A DNA stretch of 37,538 bases from a virus. The stretch covers positions 1 through 37,538 of the IMG/VR virus record IMGVR_UViG_3300010885_002277. One strand, 5' to 3'. Below the pieces are notes generated by a model. That model saw nothing but the letters and a program-made list of their open reading frames with translations, was not told the DNA's origin and ran no database searches. A program made the translations under genes and the position numbers. Of this stretch, positions 6,829-37,538 are shown piece after piece; position 1 is the first letter of the stretch; every line of letters begins with the position of its first letter.

Positions 6829-7014
6829 ATGGGCAGTTCAGAATTTTATTGGTCGGCGTACTTAATGCAAATGCTGGCGGTGCAATGCGCCCAGCTTCAT
6901 GGTCAAGATGCGCTGGTAGATGAGTATATGCTCAAGGCTAACGAATATATCGATCTGCACTTTGATGCGATTGAGACGCATATGAACAATCTCAGGGAAT
7001 TTAATAATGGTTAA
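6829..7014 (+). CDS. Small acidic helical protein, unknown
   Basis: A 61-residue protein starting MGSSEFYWSAYLMQMLAVQ, predicted helical and acidic, with no recognised family. The ATG at 6829 is preceded by GGAAGGA at about 7 bases; a longer reading from 6646 runs through the hairpin region and has no ribosome-binding site. It follows the structured leader and overlaps the ParB-like gene by 8 bases, so it is the first gene of that transcript and the direct target of any leader control. Confidence 0.7.
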   Translation: MGSSEFYWSAYLMQMLAVQCAQLHGQDALVDEYMLKANEYIDLHFDAIETHMNNLREFNNG

Positions 7015-7822
7015 GCAAGGCAAAATTGGCACTAAAAAGGATCAGGCATGGCCAGCCGATCACGTCGAGCGCCGGTCGGTTGAAAGCCTGATCCCATACG
7101 CTCGCAATGCCCGCACGCACTCGGATGCACAGGTGGCGCAACTAGCAGCGTCTATTCAGGAATGGGGCTGGACTACGCCTGTGCTGATCGATGAAGCTGG
7201 CGGCATCATTGCTGGGCATGGTCGCATCATGGCGGCTCGTAAGCTGAACATCGAAGAAGTTCCTGTAATGATCGCCACAGGATGGAGCGAGGCGCAGCGC
7301 CGAGCATATGTGCTAGCGGACAATCAGCTGGCTATGAACGCTGGCTGGGATATGGATTTGCTAAAGGTTGAGCTTGGCGATCTCGGAGAGATGGGATTTG
7401 ACCTAGACCTTATCGGATTAGATCAGAAAGAAATCGAAGCAATATCTAACGATAATGTCGTTGGAAACATGTACTCCGATAAAGTGTCTGTCCCAACATA
7501 TGAGCCAAGCGAATCAAAGCCAAAGATCGAAGATTTGTATGATGATCTAAAAGCAATGGATCTCATCTTTTCTATTAAAGAAAGCAAACTGAACGAAAAA
7601 GAAAAACAATTTCTAATGGCGGCGGCATCTCGCCATATTGTTTTTGATTACTCTAAGATTGCTGATTTTTATTCTCACGCATCTGATGAGTGCCAAAAGT
7701 TGATGGAAGAAAACGCGCTTGTCATTGTTGACTTTAATCAAGCGATTGAGAATGGATTTGTGAAAATATCGAAGCAAATGGATGATCTTATTGATTACGA
7801 TGAAGATCACAATGAAGAATGA
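7007..7822 (+). CDS. ParB/Srx-domain protein with an AT-rich C-terminal extension
   Basis: A 271-residue protein. Residues about 22-110 are a ParB N-terminal (ParB/sulfiredoxin-fold) domain, with SLIPYARNARTHSDAQVAQL and the conserved GGIIAGHGRIMAARKL box. Phages often place such domains with DNA methyltransferase or base-modification genes, where they bind or cut DNA and hydrolyse nucleotides. From about residue 141 the character changes. The extension is Lys/Glu-rich, includes LMAAASRHIVFDYSKIADFY and ALVIVDFNQAIENGFV, and has no ParB helix-turn-helix. GC falls from 56% (7081-7380) to 36% (7441-7800) at this boundary. I think I have seen this kind of extension on other phage ParB proteins but cannot name it. 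Confidence 0.85.
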   Translation: MVKQGKIGTKKDQAWPADHVERRSVESLIPYARNARTHSDAQVAQLAASIQEWGWTTPVLIDEAGGIIAGHGRIMAARKLNIEEVPVMIATGWSEAQRRAYVLADNQLAMNAGWDMDLLKVELGDLGEMGFDLDLIGLDQKEIEAISNDNVVGNMYSDKVSVPTYEPSESKPKIEDLYDDLKAMDLIFSIKESKLNEKEKQFLMAAASRHIVFDYSKIADFYSHASDECQKLMEENALVIVDFNQAIENGFVKISKQMDDLIDYDEDHNEE

Positions 7823-8765
7823 ATATATTCTAGTAAGGCATGGTCAAACCTATTGGAACAAGAATGGGATCATGCATGGGCAGTACGACATACCCCTGAA
7901 CGATACTGGTCACAAACAAGCAAAGAAGATCGCGCAAGAGTTAAAGATCGAACATTTTGATCTTTGCTATTGCTCTCCATTACAGAGGGCAAAGTCAACG
8001 GCGGCTCGCATTCTGTTCAATCATCGCAACACAAGGGCGGTGTATGACAGAAGATTGATGGAGCTCAACAAAGGCCTGCTCGAAGGAAAACATCTCAACA
8101 GCGAGAAATTGCTAAAAAACGAAGATCATAAATTTTTGAAAAAATACCAGATCGAAAGCAAGAACGATTTTTTTATGAGGGTTAAGTCATTCGTTGCAGA
8201 TGTTGAGAGTCGATACACTGGAAAGAGAATCTTGATTGTCGCCCATAGCGGCACAATCAAAATGCTTATGTTCGCTTTTGATCCACCAAAAAAAGAACTG
8301 CATAAAGCCTACTACGATCTGCACATTAAAAACTGCAAGCCTTACAGAATCAAACCACCATCAGAGAAAGTCAGCAAAATGAAAATTGGATTCTTTCCCA
8401 TGGTCGCAGATGTCCTGCACGCTGGTCATGTGATCGCGCTTGAGGAAGCAAAGAAGCATTGCGATCTTCTGATCGTTGGTTTGCATTGCAACCCATCATA
8501 CAAAGAGCCACGCCAATCAATCTATGAACGCTATATGCAGCTTCGTGCTGTGAAATTTGTAGACGAAGTGATCCCATACGAAAGCTCAGATCGCGATGCT
8601 GATATGTTTGTATCGCTTGAATACGATGTGTATTTTCTTGGCGAAGATCATCGGCAAGACGAATGGGAAATGAAGGACAAGATCGAAGCTCTTGATAAAG
8701 AGATCATATATCTGAAGCGCAAACATGGATATAGCAGCACACGGGTGAAAAATGGAAAACTCTAA
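7812..8765 (+). CDS. Bifunctional histidine phosphatase / TagD-like nucleotidyltransferase
   Basis: A 317-residue two-domain enzyme. Residues 1-180 are a phosphoglycerate-mutase-type histidine phosphatase: LVRHGQTYWN carries the nucleophile His10, a Glu lies near residue 84 (RRLMELNKG), and IVAHSGTIK gives the second His145. Residues about 190-317 resemble glycerol-3-phosphate cytidylyltransferase (TagD) and related transferases: GFFPMVADVLHAGH contains the HxGH signature (203-206), DVYFLGEDH is the metal/substrate strand and YSSTR (307-311) corresponds to the ISSTxxR motif. The pair would remove one phosphate and activate a sugar or polyol phosphate as an NDP-linked donor. The start at 7812 overlaps the ParB-like gene by 11 bases. 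An ATG at 7800 is possible. Substrate unknown. Confidence 0.85.
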   Translation: MKNEYILVRHGQTYWNKNGIMHGQYDIPLNDTGHKQAKKIAQELKIEHFDLCYCSPLQRAKSTAARILFNHRNTRAVYDRRLMELNKGLLEGKHLNSEKLLKNEDHKFLKKYQIESKNDFFMRVKSFVADVESRYTGKRILIVAHSGTIKMLMFAFDPPKKELHKAYYDLHIKNCKPYRIKPPSEKVSKMKIGFFPMVADVLHAGHVIALEEAKKHCDLLIVGLHCNPSYKEPRQSIYERYMQLRAVKFVDEVIPYESSDRDADMFVSLEYDVYFLGEDHRQDEWEMKDKIEALDKEIIYLKRKHGYSSTRVKNGKL

Positions 8766-9654
8766 AAATTACGCAGTTTTCATTTTGACTCATGGCAGAC
8801 CTGACAACGTAATCACTTACAATGTTCTGCGTAGTTCTGGATATACGGGGAAAATTTATCTTATCGTCGATGATGAAGATCAGACAATCGATGAGTACAA
8901 AAAGAGATACAAAAATGAAGTCATAGTTTTCAGCAAGAGTTCATATCAAGGCAAGTTTGACTTAATGGACAACTTCAAGGGAAACAAGGTAATCGTGTAC
9001 GCTAGGAATGCTTGCTATGACATAGCAAGAAATCTTGGGCTCGATTATTTTTTTGAGTATGAAGATGATTATACAGGTTTTTACCATCGCTATGTTGATG
9101 GAGAAAAACTTGCAGCCATTAAATCCAAGCGAATGGATGATGTCTTATTGAGCATGATCGAGTGCTTAGACAGTACAAAATCAACAACGATTGCGTTTGC
9201 ACAAGGAGGAGACTGCATAGGAGGAGCTAAGGACTTTCATAGGGTGCAATTCAAACGCAAAGCAATGAATAGCTTTTTGTTTAAAGTGAATGAAGACCCA
9301 AAAGACGATTGCACTTTTATCGGAAGAATGAACGACGACGTAAATACATATTTAACACACGGAAAACTAGGAAAGCTGTTTTTCCAAATATCTAATGTCA
9401 TGTTGATACAAAAAGCCACTCAATCAAATGCTGGAGGAAATACAGAAGCATATAAAGAATTTGGAACTTATGTGAAATCTTTTTATTCTGTGATAGCTGA
9501 ACCATCTTGCTGCAAGATAGCTATGATGGGTACTGCGCATCAACGCATCCATCATAAAATAAATTGGAACAATGCTGTTCCGAAAATAGTTCATGAACGT
9601 CATAAAAAGACAAACAGAGAGATGGTCAATGGTTCGCATAGCACACAAGCCTGA
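8752..9654 (+). CDS. TET-associated-type glycosyltransferase (TAGT-like), GT-A fold
   Basis: A 300-residue protein with the features of the TAGT group of phage glycosyltransferases: an N-terminal strand and turn AVFILTHGRPDNVITYNVL, the donor-binding strand KIYLIVDDEDQTIDEY, the VIVYARNACYDIARNLGL helix and a metal-binding EYEDD (102-106), plus a second acidic RMNDDVNTY (192-200). This family was described from phage neighbourhoods with TET/JBP dioxygenases, as enzymes glycosylating oxidised bases in DNA. No such dioxygenase is present here. It overlaps the upstream donor-synthesis gene by 14 bases and the small terminase gene by 26. GC is about 35% in sampled lines. It would act in the cytoplasm on DNA or another acceptor; the family assignment is from recalled motifs. 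Confidence 0.82.
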   Translation: MENSKNYAVFILTHGRPDNVITYNVLRSSGYTGKIYLIVDDEDQTIDEYKKRYKNEVIVFSKSSYQGKFDLMDNFKGNKVIVYARNACYDIARNLGLDYFFEYEDDYTGFYHRYVDGEKLAAIKSKRMDDVLLSMIECLDSTKSTTIAFAQGGDCIGGAKDFHRVQFKRKAMNSFLFKVNEDPKDDCTFIGRMNDDVNTYLTHGKLGKLFFQISNVMLIQKATQSNAGGNTEAYKEFGTYVKSFYSVIAEPSCCKIAMMGTAHQRIHHKINWNNAVPKIVHERHKKTNREMVNGSHSTQA

Positions 9655-9994
9655 CGATAAAACGCGCAAGCAAGTGCTGGCTCTTGCTGGCTTTGGGATG
9701 ACTCACGATCAGATCGCAAAGGTAATGGACCTGAGCGATGAGACGTTGCGCAAATATTATCGTCACGAACTCGACACCGGATTGACAAAACTCAACGCGC
9801 AAGTGGCGCAGAACTTATTCAGCATCGCAACATCTGATCGCAAAGGCGCAGTCGCAGCCGCGATCTTCTGGATGAAGACGCGCGGGCGCTGGCATGAACG
9901 CATCGACATCAGCAACGAAGACGGTACGCTGAAGCCGGAGCCGATACAAGTCGCGGTGTTGGCAGCGTTGAATAAAATTCATGAACGCGACTGA
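9629..9994 (+). CDS. terS: Terminase small subunit
   Basis: A 121-residue protein with an N-terminal helix-turn-helix (AGFGMTHDQIAKVMDLSDET), then a coiled helical section and a FWMKTRGRWHERIDI tail, typical of small terminases that recognise the packaging site and oligomerise. It directly precedes the large subunit. The start at 9629 is chosen because the HTH begins shortly after and GAGAG lies upstream; a start at 9593 would add 12 residues inside the glycosyltransferase gene. GC returns to about 53% here, marking the end of the AT-rich island. Confidence 0.85.
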   Translation: MVRIAHKPDDKTRKQVLALAGFGMTHDQIAKVMDLSDETLRKYYRHELDTGLTKLNAQVAQNLFSIATSDRKGAVAAAIFWMKTRGRWHERIDISNEDGTLKPEPIQVAVLAALNKIHERD

Positions 9995-11363
9995 ACGGGC
10001 GCTATGCACGGCGCGTCTGTATAATTACAGCCGCCATATGTTTCGCGCTCGCAAGGGCGTGGAGATGCTTGAGAACGATCACCAGCAAATCATATGCGAA
10101 GCATTGGAGCGCGTCGTTACCGGTCACACCAATCGGCTGGTGATCAACGTCCCGCCTCGATCAGGCAAAACAGAACTGGCCGTTAAGAATTTTATCGCAT
10201 GGGCGATGGGCTTGTTTCCTGATGCTGAGTTTATCCACGCCAGCTATGCAAAGCGGCTTGCGACAGCGAACACCTATGAAGTGCGCGCAATCATGCAATC
10301 AGAAGAACACCGCGCAATCTTTCCTTGGACCGAGTTGCAAGGCGACAGCAAGGCGAAGGATGAATTTCGCACGGCTCAAGGCGGCGTCGTCTATGCGACC
10401 GGCGCAGATGGAACGATCACCGGCTATGGCGCCTCAAAGATGCGCGCGGCATTCGGCGGCGCAATCGTGATCGACGACCCGCATAAAGCGGGTGAAGGAA
10501 ATTCGGCGCTGATGCGTGAGAATGTGATCGCGTGGTACCAAAACACAATCGCTTCGCGCCTGAATAAACCTGATGGACCGATCATTGTCATCATGCAGCG
10601 CTTGCATGAAGAAGACTTGTCTGGATGGCTGCTGGCCGGCGGATCAGGCGAGAAGTGGGAGCATGTGAACATCCCAGCGCGCAATCTAGACGGCTCCAGC
10701 TTCTGGCCAGAGCAATTCCCTGAAGAAATGCTAACGCGTCTTGAATTCGCGTCGTCGTATGTGTTTGCTGGGCAATACATGCAAAGCCCAGCACCAATAG
10801 GCGGCGGCATGTTCAAGGATCACTGGTGGCAGATGATGGCTGCGCCACCGCCGACGCGCTGGCGTGCGATCTATGCCGACACCGCGCAGAAGACAGCCAC
10901 GCATAACGATTGGTCTGTGCTGCAATGCTGGGGCCAGACGCTTAACGGTCAAGCGGTCATGCTCGACATGGTGCGCGGCAAGTGGGAAGCGCCAGAGCTT
11001 GAAACAATGGCGCGCGCGTTCTGGAACAAGCACAAGAGTATCGACAACATGGGCGCGCTGCGCTCGTTCAAGGTTGAAGACAAGGTTAGTGGAACTGGGC
11101 TGATCCAAAAGCTCAAACGCGAAGGAATCCCGATCATCGGCATTCAGCGCAATATTGATAAGGTTACGCGCGCCTATGATGCGGCTCCTTTGATCCAAAG
11201 CGGCAATGTGGTATTGCTGAATAATGTTCCGCATCTGTCGGATTTTATGGCTGAGGCTTCTGTGTTCCCAAATGGCGCGCACGATGACATGATCGACACC
11301 GCGATGAGCGCGATCAACGATATGTTCAACGTCTCTGCCGCGCCTTCCATTCGTTCGCTATGA
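9981..11363 (+). CDS. terL: Terminase large subunit
   Basis: A 460-residue packaging motor with an ATPase then a nuclease domain. Walker A VPPRSGKT is at 57-64, the GAIVIDDPHK Walker B strand at about 160-169. The RNase H-like nuclease shows IYADTAQKT (Asp at 300) and a C-terminal HDDMIDT (434-440) acidic pair. It translocates DNA into proheads and cuts it. The length is slightly short of the average but both domains are complete. The ATG overlaps the small-subunit gene by 14 bases. The class and the circularly permuted assembly would fit headful packaging, but the packaging type cannot be read directly. Confidence 0.93.
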   Translation: MNATERALCTARLYNYSRHMFRARKGVEMLENDHQQIICEALERVVTGHTNRLVINVPPRSGKTELAVKNFIAWAMGLFPDAEFIHASYAKRLATANTYEVRAIMQSEEHRAIFPWTELQGDSKAKDEFRTAQGGVVYATGADGTITGYGASKMRAAFGGAIVIDDPHKAGEGNSALMRENVIAWYQNTIASRLNKPDGPIIVIMQRLHEEDLSGWLLAGGSGEKWEHVNIPARNLDGSSFWPEQFPEEMLTRLEFASSYVFAGQYMQSPAPIGGGMFKDHWWQMMAAPPPTRWRAIYADTAQKTATHNDWSVLQCWGQTLNGQAVMLDMVRGKWEAPELETMARAFWNKHKSIDNMGALRSFKVEDKVSGTGLIQKLKREGIPIIGIQRNIDKVTRAYDAAPLIQSGNVVLLNNVPHLSDFMAEASVFPNGAHDDMIDTAMSAINDMFNVSAAPSIRSL

Positions 11364-32992: not shown

Positions 32993-33198
32993 GCGATCTG
33001 GAAATGTATCAAGACATGGGCAGCGTAAAGGCGCAACTTGAAGTTCTGAATCGCGAAATGAAAGAACTGAAAACAGATGTGCGCTGCATACGAGAAGACT
33101 TTGCACAAGTCAAAGGCGGATGGCGCACATTGATAGGCGTTGCAGCAATCCTTGGCGCTAGTGTGTCATGGATCGCCAACTATTTCTTTCAGCGTTGA
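32989..33198 (+). CDS. Holin-like small membrane protein
   Basis: A 69-residue protein starting MSDLEMYQDMGSVKAQLEVL: a charged coiled-coil followed by a single C-terminal membrane span (GGWRTLIGVAAILGASVSWI). This coiled-coil plus one-span layout is typical of small phage holin-like proteins. It overlaps the Rz1 stop (ATGA) and is the last rightward gene; its stop overlaps the convergent GcrA gene by about 10 bases. Identity as the actual holin is inferred from position. Confidence 0.7.
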   Translation: MSDLEMYQDMGSVKAQLEVLNREMKELKTDVRCIREDFAQVKGGWRTLIGVAAILGASVSWIANYFFQR

Positions 33199-33716
33199 GC
33201 GCCAGCTAACCACTGTTTCAAAGATTGACACTTTTTGATTTCTGCTATTTCGGCAGGAGTCAATTTGCGCTTTTTTACAAAAACAATTCCGTGATGCTCA
33301 GAACAATAATTGGTTTTGCTATCGCGCGTCACAGCACCGCAGAAATAATGCTGATCGTTGAACCGGCTGGTCGGAAAACGGCATTGATTATGCTCCAGAT
33401 CAATTAGCGCCAATCCGTTAGCGGCTGAACTGTTTTCATCTTGATACATGATCGGCGCATCCGTCAGCAGATGATCTGGCAGTTTTATTTTTTGATCTCT
33501 TGGCTTGCGTAATTTATGCCCGTGTTTTGCTATATTTCCAAGACGCCCGCGTTTTGAGTATTCAAACACTATTGGCCGCGTAATGATGCCAGAAGGGCGA
33601 AGCCTTGTTACAACGCCAATGATGGTGTTGCGGGTGATGTTCAATTCCATTGAAATAAATGTGGCGCTCTTGTTAGCGTTCCAAAGTCTAACGATTTCTG
33701 CGTTTCTATCGTTCAT
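33189..33716 (-). CDS. GcrA-like regulator
   Basis: A 175-residue protein of the GcrA cell-cycle regulator family. Residues 1-45 form the N-terminal helix-turn-helix (IVRLWNANKSATFISMELN, TRNTIIGVVTRL). The C-terminal part carries QCRFPTSRF (Cys112), HYFCGAV (Cys126) and NYCSEHH (Cys138, His141), the GcrA Cys/His pattern. In Caulobacter GcrA works with RNA polymerase at promoters affected by GANTC methylation. A phage copy could redirect host or phage transcription in an alphaproteobacterium. It overlaps the upstream gene by 11 bases (AGAGAAAAAAA before the ATG). Confidence 0.88.
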   Translation of the reverse strand: MNDRNAEIVRLWNANKSATFISMELNITRNTIIGVVTRLRPSGIITRPIVFEYSKRGRLGNIAKHGHKLRKPRDQKIKLPDHLLTDAPIMYQDENSSAANGLALIDLEHNQCRFPTSRFNDQHYFCGAVTRDSKTNYCSEHHGIVFVKKRKLTPAEIAEIKKCQSLKQWLAGAQR

Positions 33717-34521: not shown

Positions 34522-34706
34522 TCAGTCGGCATTTTCTTAGGCGACTTACCGCCTTGCTTGCCAGCGGATCGAGCAAGGTCGCGACTTTTTGTAAAAGCGC
34601 GATTTGCAGGATTGACGGCTTTGCCGCCCATGCTGGCGATTTCTTTGCGGCGCTCCGGCGTCATGCTGGCAAAGCCACGGCGTGATTTTCCATTCTGTTC
34701 GGTCAT
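34518..34706 (-). CDS. KGG-motif stress-type small protein
   Basis: A 62-residue basic protein starting MTEQNGKSRRGFASMTPERR with MGGKAVNPANRAF and AGKQGGK, the Gly/Lys-rich pattern of the bacterial stress-induced KGG family (con-10-like). The function of these small proteins is not established; phage copies are occasional. Start at 34706, internal to a longer frame that begins in the upstream gene. The end overlaps the transglycosylase start (ATGA). Confidence 0.75.
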   Translation of the reverse strand: MTEQNGKSRRGFASMTPERRKEIASMGGKAVNPANRAFTKSRDLARSAGKQGGKSPKKMPTE

Positions 34707-35014
34707 GATCTTTCCTTTGGTCTGTCGTCCAAATCTGGACGGGTTTGGAGCATATTGATAGCAAACATTATACAGCACGCAGCGTGCGCCAGATGCTGGC
34801 ATCCGCTTTCCTGATCGAATGTTTCTCCGTCGTTATGAGCCAAGATGTGCCGCAACGCTGCGGCTATTAAACGACTTTGCGATATTCCATCACGCCAGTT
34901 GTGGCGATTGTACTTAGTCGCGCCATATCGCAAGGCGTATGAAATTTGCTCTAGCGCATATCGATCAAGCAGATCGAGCGGAGGCTTGCCGCTATCGTAT
35001 TTATTCGCACTCAT
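34703..35014 (-). CDS. dATP/dGTP diphosphohydrolase N-terminal-like protein (DUF5664)
   Basis: A 103-residue helical protein with KYDSGKPPLDLLDRYALEQ, ALRYGATKYNRHNWRDG, AALRHILAHNDGETFDQESG and HLAHAACC. This is the all-alpha pattern of the DUF5664 (dATP/dGTP pyrophosphohydrolase N-terminal) group, related in architecture to MazG-type enzymes. It probably hydrolyses particular dNTPs, shaping pools for phage replication or base modification. It is not accompanied by a PurZ gene, so a diaminopurine genome is not indicated. Overlap of 14 bases with the DnaA-like gene. Confidence 0.8.
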   Translation of the reverse strand: MSANKYDSGKPPLDLLDRYALEQISYALRYGATKYNRHNWRDGISQSRLIAAALRHILAHNDGETFDQESGCQHLAHAACCIMFAINMLQTRPDLDDRPKERS

Positions 35015-36265: not shown

Positions 36266-37538
36266 GCCCATTCCCTCTTAACGACGCGGAAAAACTTTCC
36301 ATCTTGACGATATTCTATCGTTTTTGGATATTGTCCAGCCGATAATCCATCAGCCATTTGTTCAAAGTCTCGCACTCGCATCAAATCTAATACGGCTCCG
36401 GCTTGGTTAGCAATTACGGCAATGGCGCGCCTTGCTTTCTCTCCTGCATATCCTTCATGCGTTATTGGGAAGTATTCAGTAACAGATTTGTCAGACAGAT
36501 TTGAGCCGTAATAAGTAGCGGCGAGCATTTCTTTGCCGCTAGTGCGACTGATGTGCTTGCGCCATACCCATTTACTGACATTCATATTATGCCCGTCAAG
36601 GCCCATGATGTCGTCATCGCGCAAGTTCATAGACTTTGGCGGTGGCGCAGGAAATGGATTGCCGCACGCTGGGCAAACTTGCGCCGATATGTGAACGATC
36701 TCGTTGCAAGCCTCGCAGACTTTAGACGGCGCTTCGCCTGTCCCATCGCCTTTCTTCTTCGGCGCTTGAACTGCCGTGATCGGTCCATGCGTTTCGACAA
36801 CGCCTGCAAAGTCTAAAACCAGACAATGATCGGTGTGGCTCTTCGGTCGCATTCCTCGCCCAGCCATCTGAACGTAAAGCGATGGACTCATGGTCGGGCG
36901 CAGCATCGCAATCAGATCGATGTCGGGATAATCAAATCCGGTCGTAAGCACGTTGGCGTTAGTCAGTGCTTGCAGGCGACCAGCTTTGAAATCTGCAATC
37001 ATTCGCTCGCGTTCCTTCTTTGGCGTTTCTCCTGTCACGCACTCAGCGTTGATGCAGCGCGATTGCAGCACGCTTGCAATATGCTGCGCGTGCTTGACGC
37101 CAGTGCAGAAAAACAGCCACGCCTTGCGATTGCCCGCCAGCGATATGACCTTATCAACAACAGCTTGGTTCTTGTCGTCATTATCGACTGCGGCTTGAAG
37201 TTCACTCTCGATAAATTCTCCTCCACGTTTATGCACGCCAGACAGATCAAACTTTATGCCGGTGATCTTGCTGCGAAGAGGCGCAAGGAATCCTTTGTAA
37301 ACGAGTTCTTCAATCGTCACGGATTCCAACAGATCATCGAACAGGGCTGGCTTGTCGGTGATCAGCCCGTGGCCGAGCCGATACGGCGTCGCGGTCAAGC
37401 CGATAACGCGCAGCATGGGATTGATCGCTTGCAGATTGCCGATCAGCTTTCGATAACCGCCTTCGTCCTTGTGCGAAACAAGGTGGCATTCGTCAATGAT
37501 GATCAGATCGATGTGGCCGATCTCGGATGCCTTATCGA
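36262..37538 (-). CDS. Superfamily 2 DNA helicase, C-terminal part (N-terminus at 1-335)
   Basis: The rest of the helicase begun at 335-1. It carries the DECH motif II (IIIDECHLVSHKDEGG, near the window end), motif III-like GLTATPYR, the C-terminal RecA domain with TTGFDYPDI and QMAGRGMRP (motif VI), and a zinc ribbon CEACNEIV...CPACGNPFP after it. The end of the window falls within this gene. The frame is continuous when the 18-base end overlap is merged. It is the largest protein of the recombination block. Confidence 0.9.
   Translation of the reverse strand, partial: DKASEIGHIDLIIIDECHLVSHKDEGGYRKLIGNLQAINPMLRVIGLTATPYRLGHGLITDKPALFDDLLESVTIEELVYKGFLAPLRSKITGIKFDLSGVHKRGGEFIESELQAAVDNDDKNQAVVDKVISLAGNRKAWLFFCTGVKHAQHIASVLQSRCINAECVTGETPKKERERMIADFKAGRLQALTNANVLTTGFDYPDIDLIAMLRPTMSPSLYVQMAGRGMRPKSHTDHCLVLDFAGVVETHGPITAVQAPKKKGDGTGEAPSKVCEACNEIVHISAQVCPACGNPFPAPPPKSMNLRDDDIMGLDGHNMNVSKWVWRKHISRTSGKEMLAATYYGSNLSDKSVTEYFPITHEGYAGEKARRAIAVIANQAGAVLDLMRVRDFEQMADGLSAGQYPKTIEYRQDGKFFRVVKREWA
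37520..37537. repeat. Terminal direct repeat with positions 1-18
   Basis: Bases 37520-37537 are identical to 1-18. The last base of the window (37538, a) differs from base 19 (c). The overlap restores one open helicase frame, so the window is one circular unit of about 37,519 bp. The mismatch of the final base may be an assembly artefact. Confidence 0.9.

Follow-up and report, generated by a model that had tools for sequence, protein, structure and literature searches.

TAGT glycosyltransferase and its partner domain

The TAGT family glycosyltransferase encoded by virus record IMGVR_UViG_3300010885_002277 (analysed over its whole stretch of 37,538 nucleotides, here called the window) has a constant companion, a short domain at the C-terminus of the ParB-like protein encoded upstream. 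The chances are about even that the two make up a two-part, terminase-linked DNA-glycosylation module which has no need of TET, and the position of this pair beside the packaging genes suggests a DNA-marking system. The name ParBC was coined in this analysis for the partner domain, the C-terminal ~105 amino acids of the ParB-like protein. The genes concerned are as follows.

7007 to 7441, + strand: ParB_N part of the ParB-like protein (open reading frame 7007 to 7822); PF02195, AlphaFold2 model like ParB/Noc, GC 0.54
7457 to 7822, + strand: ParBC, helical partner domain of ~105 amino acids, C-terminal part of the same reading frame; recognised by its position 5' of TAGT, GC 0.36
7782 to 8765, + strand: fused protein with a histidine-phosphatase part (~7827 to 8354; His_Phos_1, 1.6e-39) and a cytidylyltransferase-like part (~8409 to 8753; CTP_transf_like, 3.8e-13)
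8752 to 9654, + strand: TAGT glycosyltransferase; PF20691 (1.1e-32), PHROG 842, AlphaFold2 model with GT-A fold
9593 to 9994, + strand: terminase small subunit, directly downstream of TAGT and overlapping its end; PHROG 309 (1.2e-13), GC 0.53, start at ATG 9593, with the internal ATG 9629 also possible
9981 to 11363, + strand: terminase large subunit (TerL), from the open reading frame list; homologous to TerL of loci L122 and L123

The reading frame at 8752 to 9654 encodes 300 residues, and the chance of 301 open codons is ~7e-11 on base composition alone. Its product matches the full TAGT profile (positions 1 to 205 of PF20691 in Pfam) with 114.1 bits against a gathering cut-off of 27.5, and PHROG 842, labelled 'beta-glucosyl-HMC-alpha-glucosyltransferase', at 8e-66; a weak PHROG match was to phrog_14945, 'glycosyltransferase' (8.7e-4 over 48 residues). 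Within its EDDY motif, D105 and D106 do not vary among 73 sequences, and the AlphaFold2 model, built with 73 sequences (mean pLDDT 92), adopts a GT-A fold. The gene was thus correctly described as TAGT-like in the initial annotation, which had allowed for an ordinary cell-surface glycosyltransferase family; the profile search gave no such family, TAGT being the sole Pfam match at E up to 1. Searches of PDB sequences gave no convincing solved relative. Among the best 50 entries, the best VIA alignments of the model were to polypeptide GalNAc-transferases, GnT-I and cellulose and chondroitin synthases (Z 11.8 to 13.9), with the protein glycosyltransferase ppGalNAcT-2 at Z 13.9, and the top Foldseek matches were TarP, RmlT and collagen galactosyltransferase. 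These matches of the predicted structure are generic for GT-A and do not name the acceptor.

The ParB_N part matches PF02195 at 8.9e-5 (22.9 bits), just below the cut-off of 26.3, and its AlphaFold2 model matches CTP-bound ParB and Noc with Z 15.2 and an rmsd of 1.4 to 1.8 over 91 to 92 residues. By this model it has the ParB/CTPase fold, from which CTP binding, hydrolysis and DNA loading are only predicted. As ParB_N matches fill the list, the fold search with the ParB-like protein bears on ParB_N alone. A role as a partition protein was set aside, no ParA having been noticed among the scanned window genes.

ParBC matches no Pfam family above the cut-off, gives only chance-level matches in a PDB sequence search and is helical in the AlphaFold2 model. 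In 62 proteins five residues are invariant (Y165, R209, Y222, E234 and D242). H210 is replaced in several members and there is no invariant histidine, so that a metal site of the Fe/2OG type is not to be seen. The module can do without ParB_N: Vibrio phage pv27 (L077) has ParBC by itself, and so, judged by short frames, apparently do L056, L082, L091, L095, L107, L108 and L119. Since several pairs are without ParB_N, tethering to DNA cannot depend on this part alone. At L110 (4465 to 5126) two overlapping frames encode ParB_N and ParBC separately, which may reflect a frameshift, an error of sequencing or programmed slippage.

ParBC and TAGT are obligately paired

A ParBC-TAGT module is defined here as ParBC directly 5' of TAGT or separated from it by accessory genes only, as in the window, where ParBC (7457 to 7822) is followed by the gene at 7782 to 8765 and then by TAGT. 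No uncut locus departs from this arrangement, and the pairing is obligate. Of the 80 loci first collected, 71 are uncut and all of these have ParBC beside TAGT; in the other nine the contig starts less than 575 bases from TAGT. Loci in bacterial genomes, found with the TAGT alignment, had ParBC just upstream in 41 cases out of 41. In the reverse search from ParBC, among the best 80 of at least 583 relatives, TAGT adjoined in 74 of 76 loci and the other two stop at a contig end; these 76 loci are not independent, since many are on contigs already in the first TAGT set.

The two domains also diverge together. At 158 loci ParB_N, ParBC and TAGT are all in place; for the 69 left after dereplication, the Spearman correlation of distances was 0.46 for ParBC with TAGT compared with 0.17 for ParB_N with TAGT (bootstrap difference 0.29, 95% interval 0.09 to 0.46). 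Accessory genes differ between phages, and ParBC and TAGT are constant.

The pairing was not found in print in the open-licence literature, which omits most subscription papers and preprints. The available portions of papers on HHTV-2 (PMC8651126, PMC3950731), MetaGPA (PMC8670742), cryoconite phages (PMC7468147) and 7-deazaguanine phages (PMC6884629) hold no mention of it. No known modified base was found for the phages which carry the pair.

Accessory genes of the cassette

The ParB-like gene and the phosphatase-cytidylyltransferase gene, which form one cassette with TAGT, were overlooked in the initial annotation. Solved relatives of the fusion protein at 7782 to 8765 are phosphoserine phosphatase (4ij5) and glycerol-3-phosphate cytidylyltransferase (1coz/2b7l), and the protein is likely to make or trim an activated sugar or polyol donor. 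The fusion is optional and occurs mainly in the window's own clade. At L055/L137, which are one contig, a single frame runs through ParB_N, ParBC, phosphatase and cytidylyltransferase.

GC content along the window is 0.54 in ParB_N (like the rest of the phage), 0.36 in ParBC, 0.42 in the phosphatase-cytidylyltransferase gene, 0.37 in the TAGT gene and 0.53 in the terminase small subunit gene, so that the AT-rich cassette starts at the junction of ParB_N and ParBC. From these steps (0.54 to 0.36 to 0.53) it looks like a foreign cassette that was joined in frame at this border.

The products of many accessory genes are of types that form or convert nucleotide sugars or attach further sugars. UDP-galactopyranose mutase accompanies the pair at L118 and L119, a lone cytidylyltransferase at L082, L172 and L191, and second or third TAGTs at L083, L085, L087, L119, L171 and L189. 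Between ParBC and TAGT are found CofD with an NTP_transf_3 nucleotidyltransferase (L158, 3083 to 5474), a radical SAM protein (L174, 4330 to 5319) and a methyltransferase (L196, 4341 to 5114). The minimal pairs of E. coli (L074) and halovirus HHTV-2 have no other enzyme in common.

Linkage to terminase genes and distribution

From 189 TAGT loci, 104 remained at 85% identity, of which 75 have 3 kb of downstream sequence and 69 a downstream frame of at least 350 residues (six were dropped). TerL is the first large downstream open reading frame in 58 of these 69 dereplicated loci by chained profile searches, and tallies with Pfam and PHROG agree. The remaining 11 have no recognised TerL next; two of these are cases of terminase small subunits (L074, so annotated, and L088, judged by its position ahead of TerL), and other downstream genes encode a helicase (L077), UDP-galactopyranose mutase (L118, L119) and DNA polymerase or sliding clamp (L171, L189).

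The pair lies directly before the terminase genes, in some cases with one small gene between, in Rac-type phages of E. coli, Lactobacillus phages phiLdb and jlb1, Nocardia phage NTR1 and a Porphyromonas phage; in HHTV-2 it lies a few genes before the terminase. Lactobacillus phages phiLdb, c5 and jlb1 and HHTV-2, which infect harmless hosts and offer themselves as model systems, carry the pair in its minimal form. In phiLdb (L075, 848 to 1713) the annotation divides TAGT between two genes, and tblastn recovered it in two pieces.

The pair is common: among 5426 complete genomes of E. coli, 763 carry 80% or more of a 5-kb segment in which it lies. The pair is optional cargo, since some E. coli terminase relatives (L128) are without it. 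The Rac-type prophages (ynaK followed by 'GREB1-related protein') have the same ParB_N-ParBC and TAGT pair before the terminase as the window but, unlike it, no phosphatase-cytidylyltransferase gene between ParB and TAGT. MG1655 has only a shortened ynaK: in its Rac prophage (L133, 3709 to 3972) this K-12 gene is what is left of the pair, a shortened ParB_N. Rac-type copies that are intact, found in other strains, still have TAGT, annotated as 'GREB1-related protein' or hypothetical.

The same slot holds DNA methylases in close relatives

In L122 and L123, which share 72% identity with the window in TerL, a homologous ParB_N (60% identical) again occupies the slot before the terminase small and large subunit genes, but is fused to an N6/N4 methylase (N6_N4_Mtase, 9.5e-19) as effector in place of ParBC and TAGT. 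At the 80 loci examined for close relatives of ParB_N, the homologous methylase is present in 55 and ParBC in seven, one is cut and 17 have something else, two of these 17 being methylases by Pfam (L222, L228). Six of the seven ParBC-bearing relatives have TAGT, and the seventh (L212) shows none on a contig piece that ends soon after. TAGT was found beside the methylase in none of the methylase-fusion loci among these 80 relatives.

A parallel is seen in Mycobacterium phage Nigel (L293, 1 to 4129, gp1 to gp4), in which a ParB-like gene (gp1) overlaps a TET-like gene (gp2) and is followed by a P-loop nucleotide kinase gene (PF18751) and the terminase. Like the window it has a ParB-like gene and a gene of DNA-modification type before the terminase; unlike it, gp1 is without ParBC and the effector is the TET-like protein with the P-loop kinase. 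Given this parallel, the succession of ParB-like gene, base-modifying enzyme and terminase recurs, and its effector is of at least three kinds (methylase, TET-like and ParBC-TAGT). The label 'queuine tRNA-ribosyltransferase' that PHROG 6059 gives to the TET-like protein of Nigel looks wrong. A ParB-methylase of Bacillus cereus is reported to have nicking activity (PMC5512222, a review, in its available text), and by analogy ParB_N could also nick DNA.

No recognised enzyme makes the acceptor

Positions 1 to 18 of the window are identical to positions 37520 to 37537, and joining the ends at this 18-bp overlap restores a single 537-codon helicase frame that is otherwise split over both ends. The record is therefore a closed circle, and the initial annotation was right to call the genome essentially complete. 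A fragmentary genome as the cause of a missing enzyme was set aside.

In a six-frame search Tet_JBP was found in none of 48 records, the window's own included. As this search was without a positive control it was repeated with phage Nigel, whose gp2 was detected (E 4.2e-8, 28.1 bits, below the Pfam cut-off of 34.9), and Tet_JBP was again absent from the window and ten other records. Thymidylat_synt (PF00303), to which the dCMP and dUMP hydroxymethylases belong, has no match in the window and is missing from 37 of 39 records, being present only in T6 (the control, with gp42 among its matches) and Vibrio phage pv27. Neither family occurs among the 47 window proteins scanned with Pfam, and the same protein scan gave no companion alpha-GT or beta-GT family. 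The initial annotation had recognised no dioxygenase, hydroxymethylase or thymidylate-synthase-like gene, and with controls positive this holds for the window: there is no known acceptor-making enzyme in its genome or in the relatives checked.

Comparison with known TAGT systems

The founding analysis of the family reportedly named its members TET/JBP-associated glycosyltransferases. The TAGT domain is common to that system and the window; Tet_JBP is expected in the former, and none was found in the window or the other pair-bearing records searched. According to the available text of PMC13216743, the TAGT of T6 has a GT-A fold, and in T2 and T6 TAGT puts a second glucose on glucosylated hydroxymethylcytosine; the hydroxymethylcytosine used in T6 comes from dCMP hydroxymethylase (PMC13216743, PMC13390438, as far as their available text goes). 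The initial annotation was right about the family but overstated its tie to TET, for this PF20691 member works on hydroxymethylcytosine supplied by dCMP hydroxymethylase; TAGT does not imply TET.

The T6 gene ggt encodes a PF20691 member like the window's (1e-8 in T6, 1e-32 in the window). Unlike window TAGT it adjoins dCMP hydroxymethylase and extends an existing glucosyl group (reaction from the available text of PMC13216743), and no ParBC is present in the 30-kb stretch of T6 examined. The T-even glucosyl-hydroxymethylcytosine system requires dCMP hydroxymethylase, whereas the window has no PF00303 in the search that found gp42 of T6. A profile of the 73 TAGTs from ParBC loci did not detect T6 ggt at E 10; since it misses ggt though Pfam links both, the homology is distant.

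Solitary phage TAGTs are already in print: the available text of PMC13216743 (2026) describes 288 of 753 phage genomes with TAGT and neither alpha- nor beta-GT, which may encode new DNA transferases. The ParBC partner is the addition made here; the word ParB is absent from the main text of that paper. For solitary TAGTs the present work names the piece to test, one obligate partner domain in one fixed slot that is shared with DNA methylases.

A proposed module for DNA glycosylation and its alternatives

In the module proposed, ParB_N or another element would bring the complex to DNA, ParBC would hold TAGT and present the base, and TAGT would move sugar from a nucleotide sugar onto bases of the phage's own DNA around packaging time, presumably as protection. 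The donor would be host-derived in minimal versions and phage-made where extra enzymes occur, here the phosphatase-cytidylyltransferase fusion. Such a module would be the alternative to the ParB_N-DNA methylase fusions in the same slot of close relatives. As no hydroxylating enzyme is recognised, the base would either be glycosylated unmodified by TAGT or be prepared beforehand by ParBC. Direct glycosylation would be new chemistry, since standard bases offer no hydroxymethyl-type acceptor. It is tentatively proposed, as a possibility with less than even chances, that ParBC and TAGT are a minimal TET-free hypermodification system in tailed viruses of bacteria and archaea and in E. coli prophages, where an unmodified base is glycosylated directly (for example on an exocyclic amine) after ParBC has delivered or activated it. 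If the pair does modify DNA, the labels 'ParB' and 'GREB1-related protein' would conceal a widespread modification.

A protein might be glycosylated instead, be it terminase, capsid, a host protein or ParBC itself, which has the invariant tyrosines Y165 and Y222; the initial annotation had named a virion protein as a possible target. The closest solved folds of TAGT include the polypeptide GalNAc-transferases, and GREB1, the human protein after which the NCBI pipeline names the E. coli TAGT gene, is reported in the available text of PMC12645433 and PMC10908778 to O-GlcNAcylate a receptor. Against this, the TAGT module swaps with a DNA methylase behind a common ParB_N, some loci away from terminase adjoin DNA polymerase or sliding clamp (L171, L189), and T6 ggt, a phage TAGT of known reaction, acts on DNA (PMC13216743, available text). 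As protein glycosyltransferases are among the fold matches, GREB1 is reported to act on protein and a DNA target is deduced from context, DNA is given no better than even chances and a protein target is regarded as unlikely, though a serious contender. That TAGT is an ordinary cell-surface enzyme which alters LPS, capsule or teichoic acid of the host is hardly credible and is disfavoured; TarP and RmlT lead the Foldseek matches together with collagen galactosyltransferase, and a TagD-like cytidylyltransferase and nucleotide-sugar enzymes accompany TAGT, but Pfam gives no surface family, and TAGT is linked obligately to ParBC and frequently to terminase.

The initial annotation had also considered that the acceptor is made by the host or by an unrecognised phage protein. 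That the host supplies a modified base, or that an unlinked phage enzyme missed by profiles does so, is very unlikely: highly diverged enzymes do escape profiles, and the TET-like protein of Nigel itself scores below the Pfam cut-off, but PF00303 is nearly always absent (the two exceptions are given above) and the phages that have the pair infect hosts as diverse as E. coli, Lactobacillus, Nocardia, Porphyromonas and Haloarcula, which are not known to share any base hydroxylation. The evidence does point to an unrecognised phage protein, ParBC, though as a partner encoded upstream and more likely not as a base hydroxylase. It is improbable that ParBC is the missing acceptor-maker, such as a new base hydroxylase or transferase whose product TAGT glycosylates. 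Its obligate pairing with TAGT, strong conservation (five invariant residues in 62 proteins) and presence in minimal pairs that share no other enzyme would suit such a role; its size of only ~105 residues, helical model, lack of an invariant histidine and hence of a visible Fe/2OG-type metal site, and lack of any enzyme family by sequence in Pfam or PDB speak against it. A targeting or acceptor-presenting subunit of the proposed DNA-glycosylation module is the more likely role of ParBC.

Other genes of the window

The gene at 34703 to 35014 (- strand) encodes a member of the dATP/dGTP diphosphohydrolase N-terminal family (PF18909, 8.5e-32), which could bear on nucleotide pools. A homologue of the cell-cycle regulator GcrA (PF07750, 2.2e-12) is encoded at 33189 to 33716 (- strand), from which the host of this virus is probably an alphaproteobacterium.
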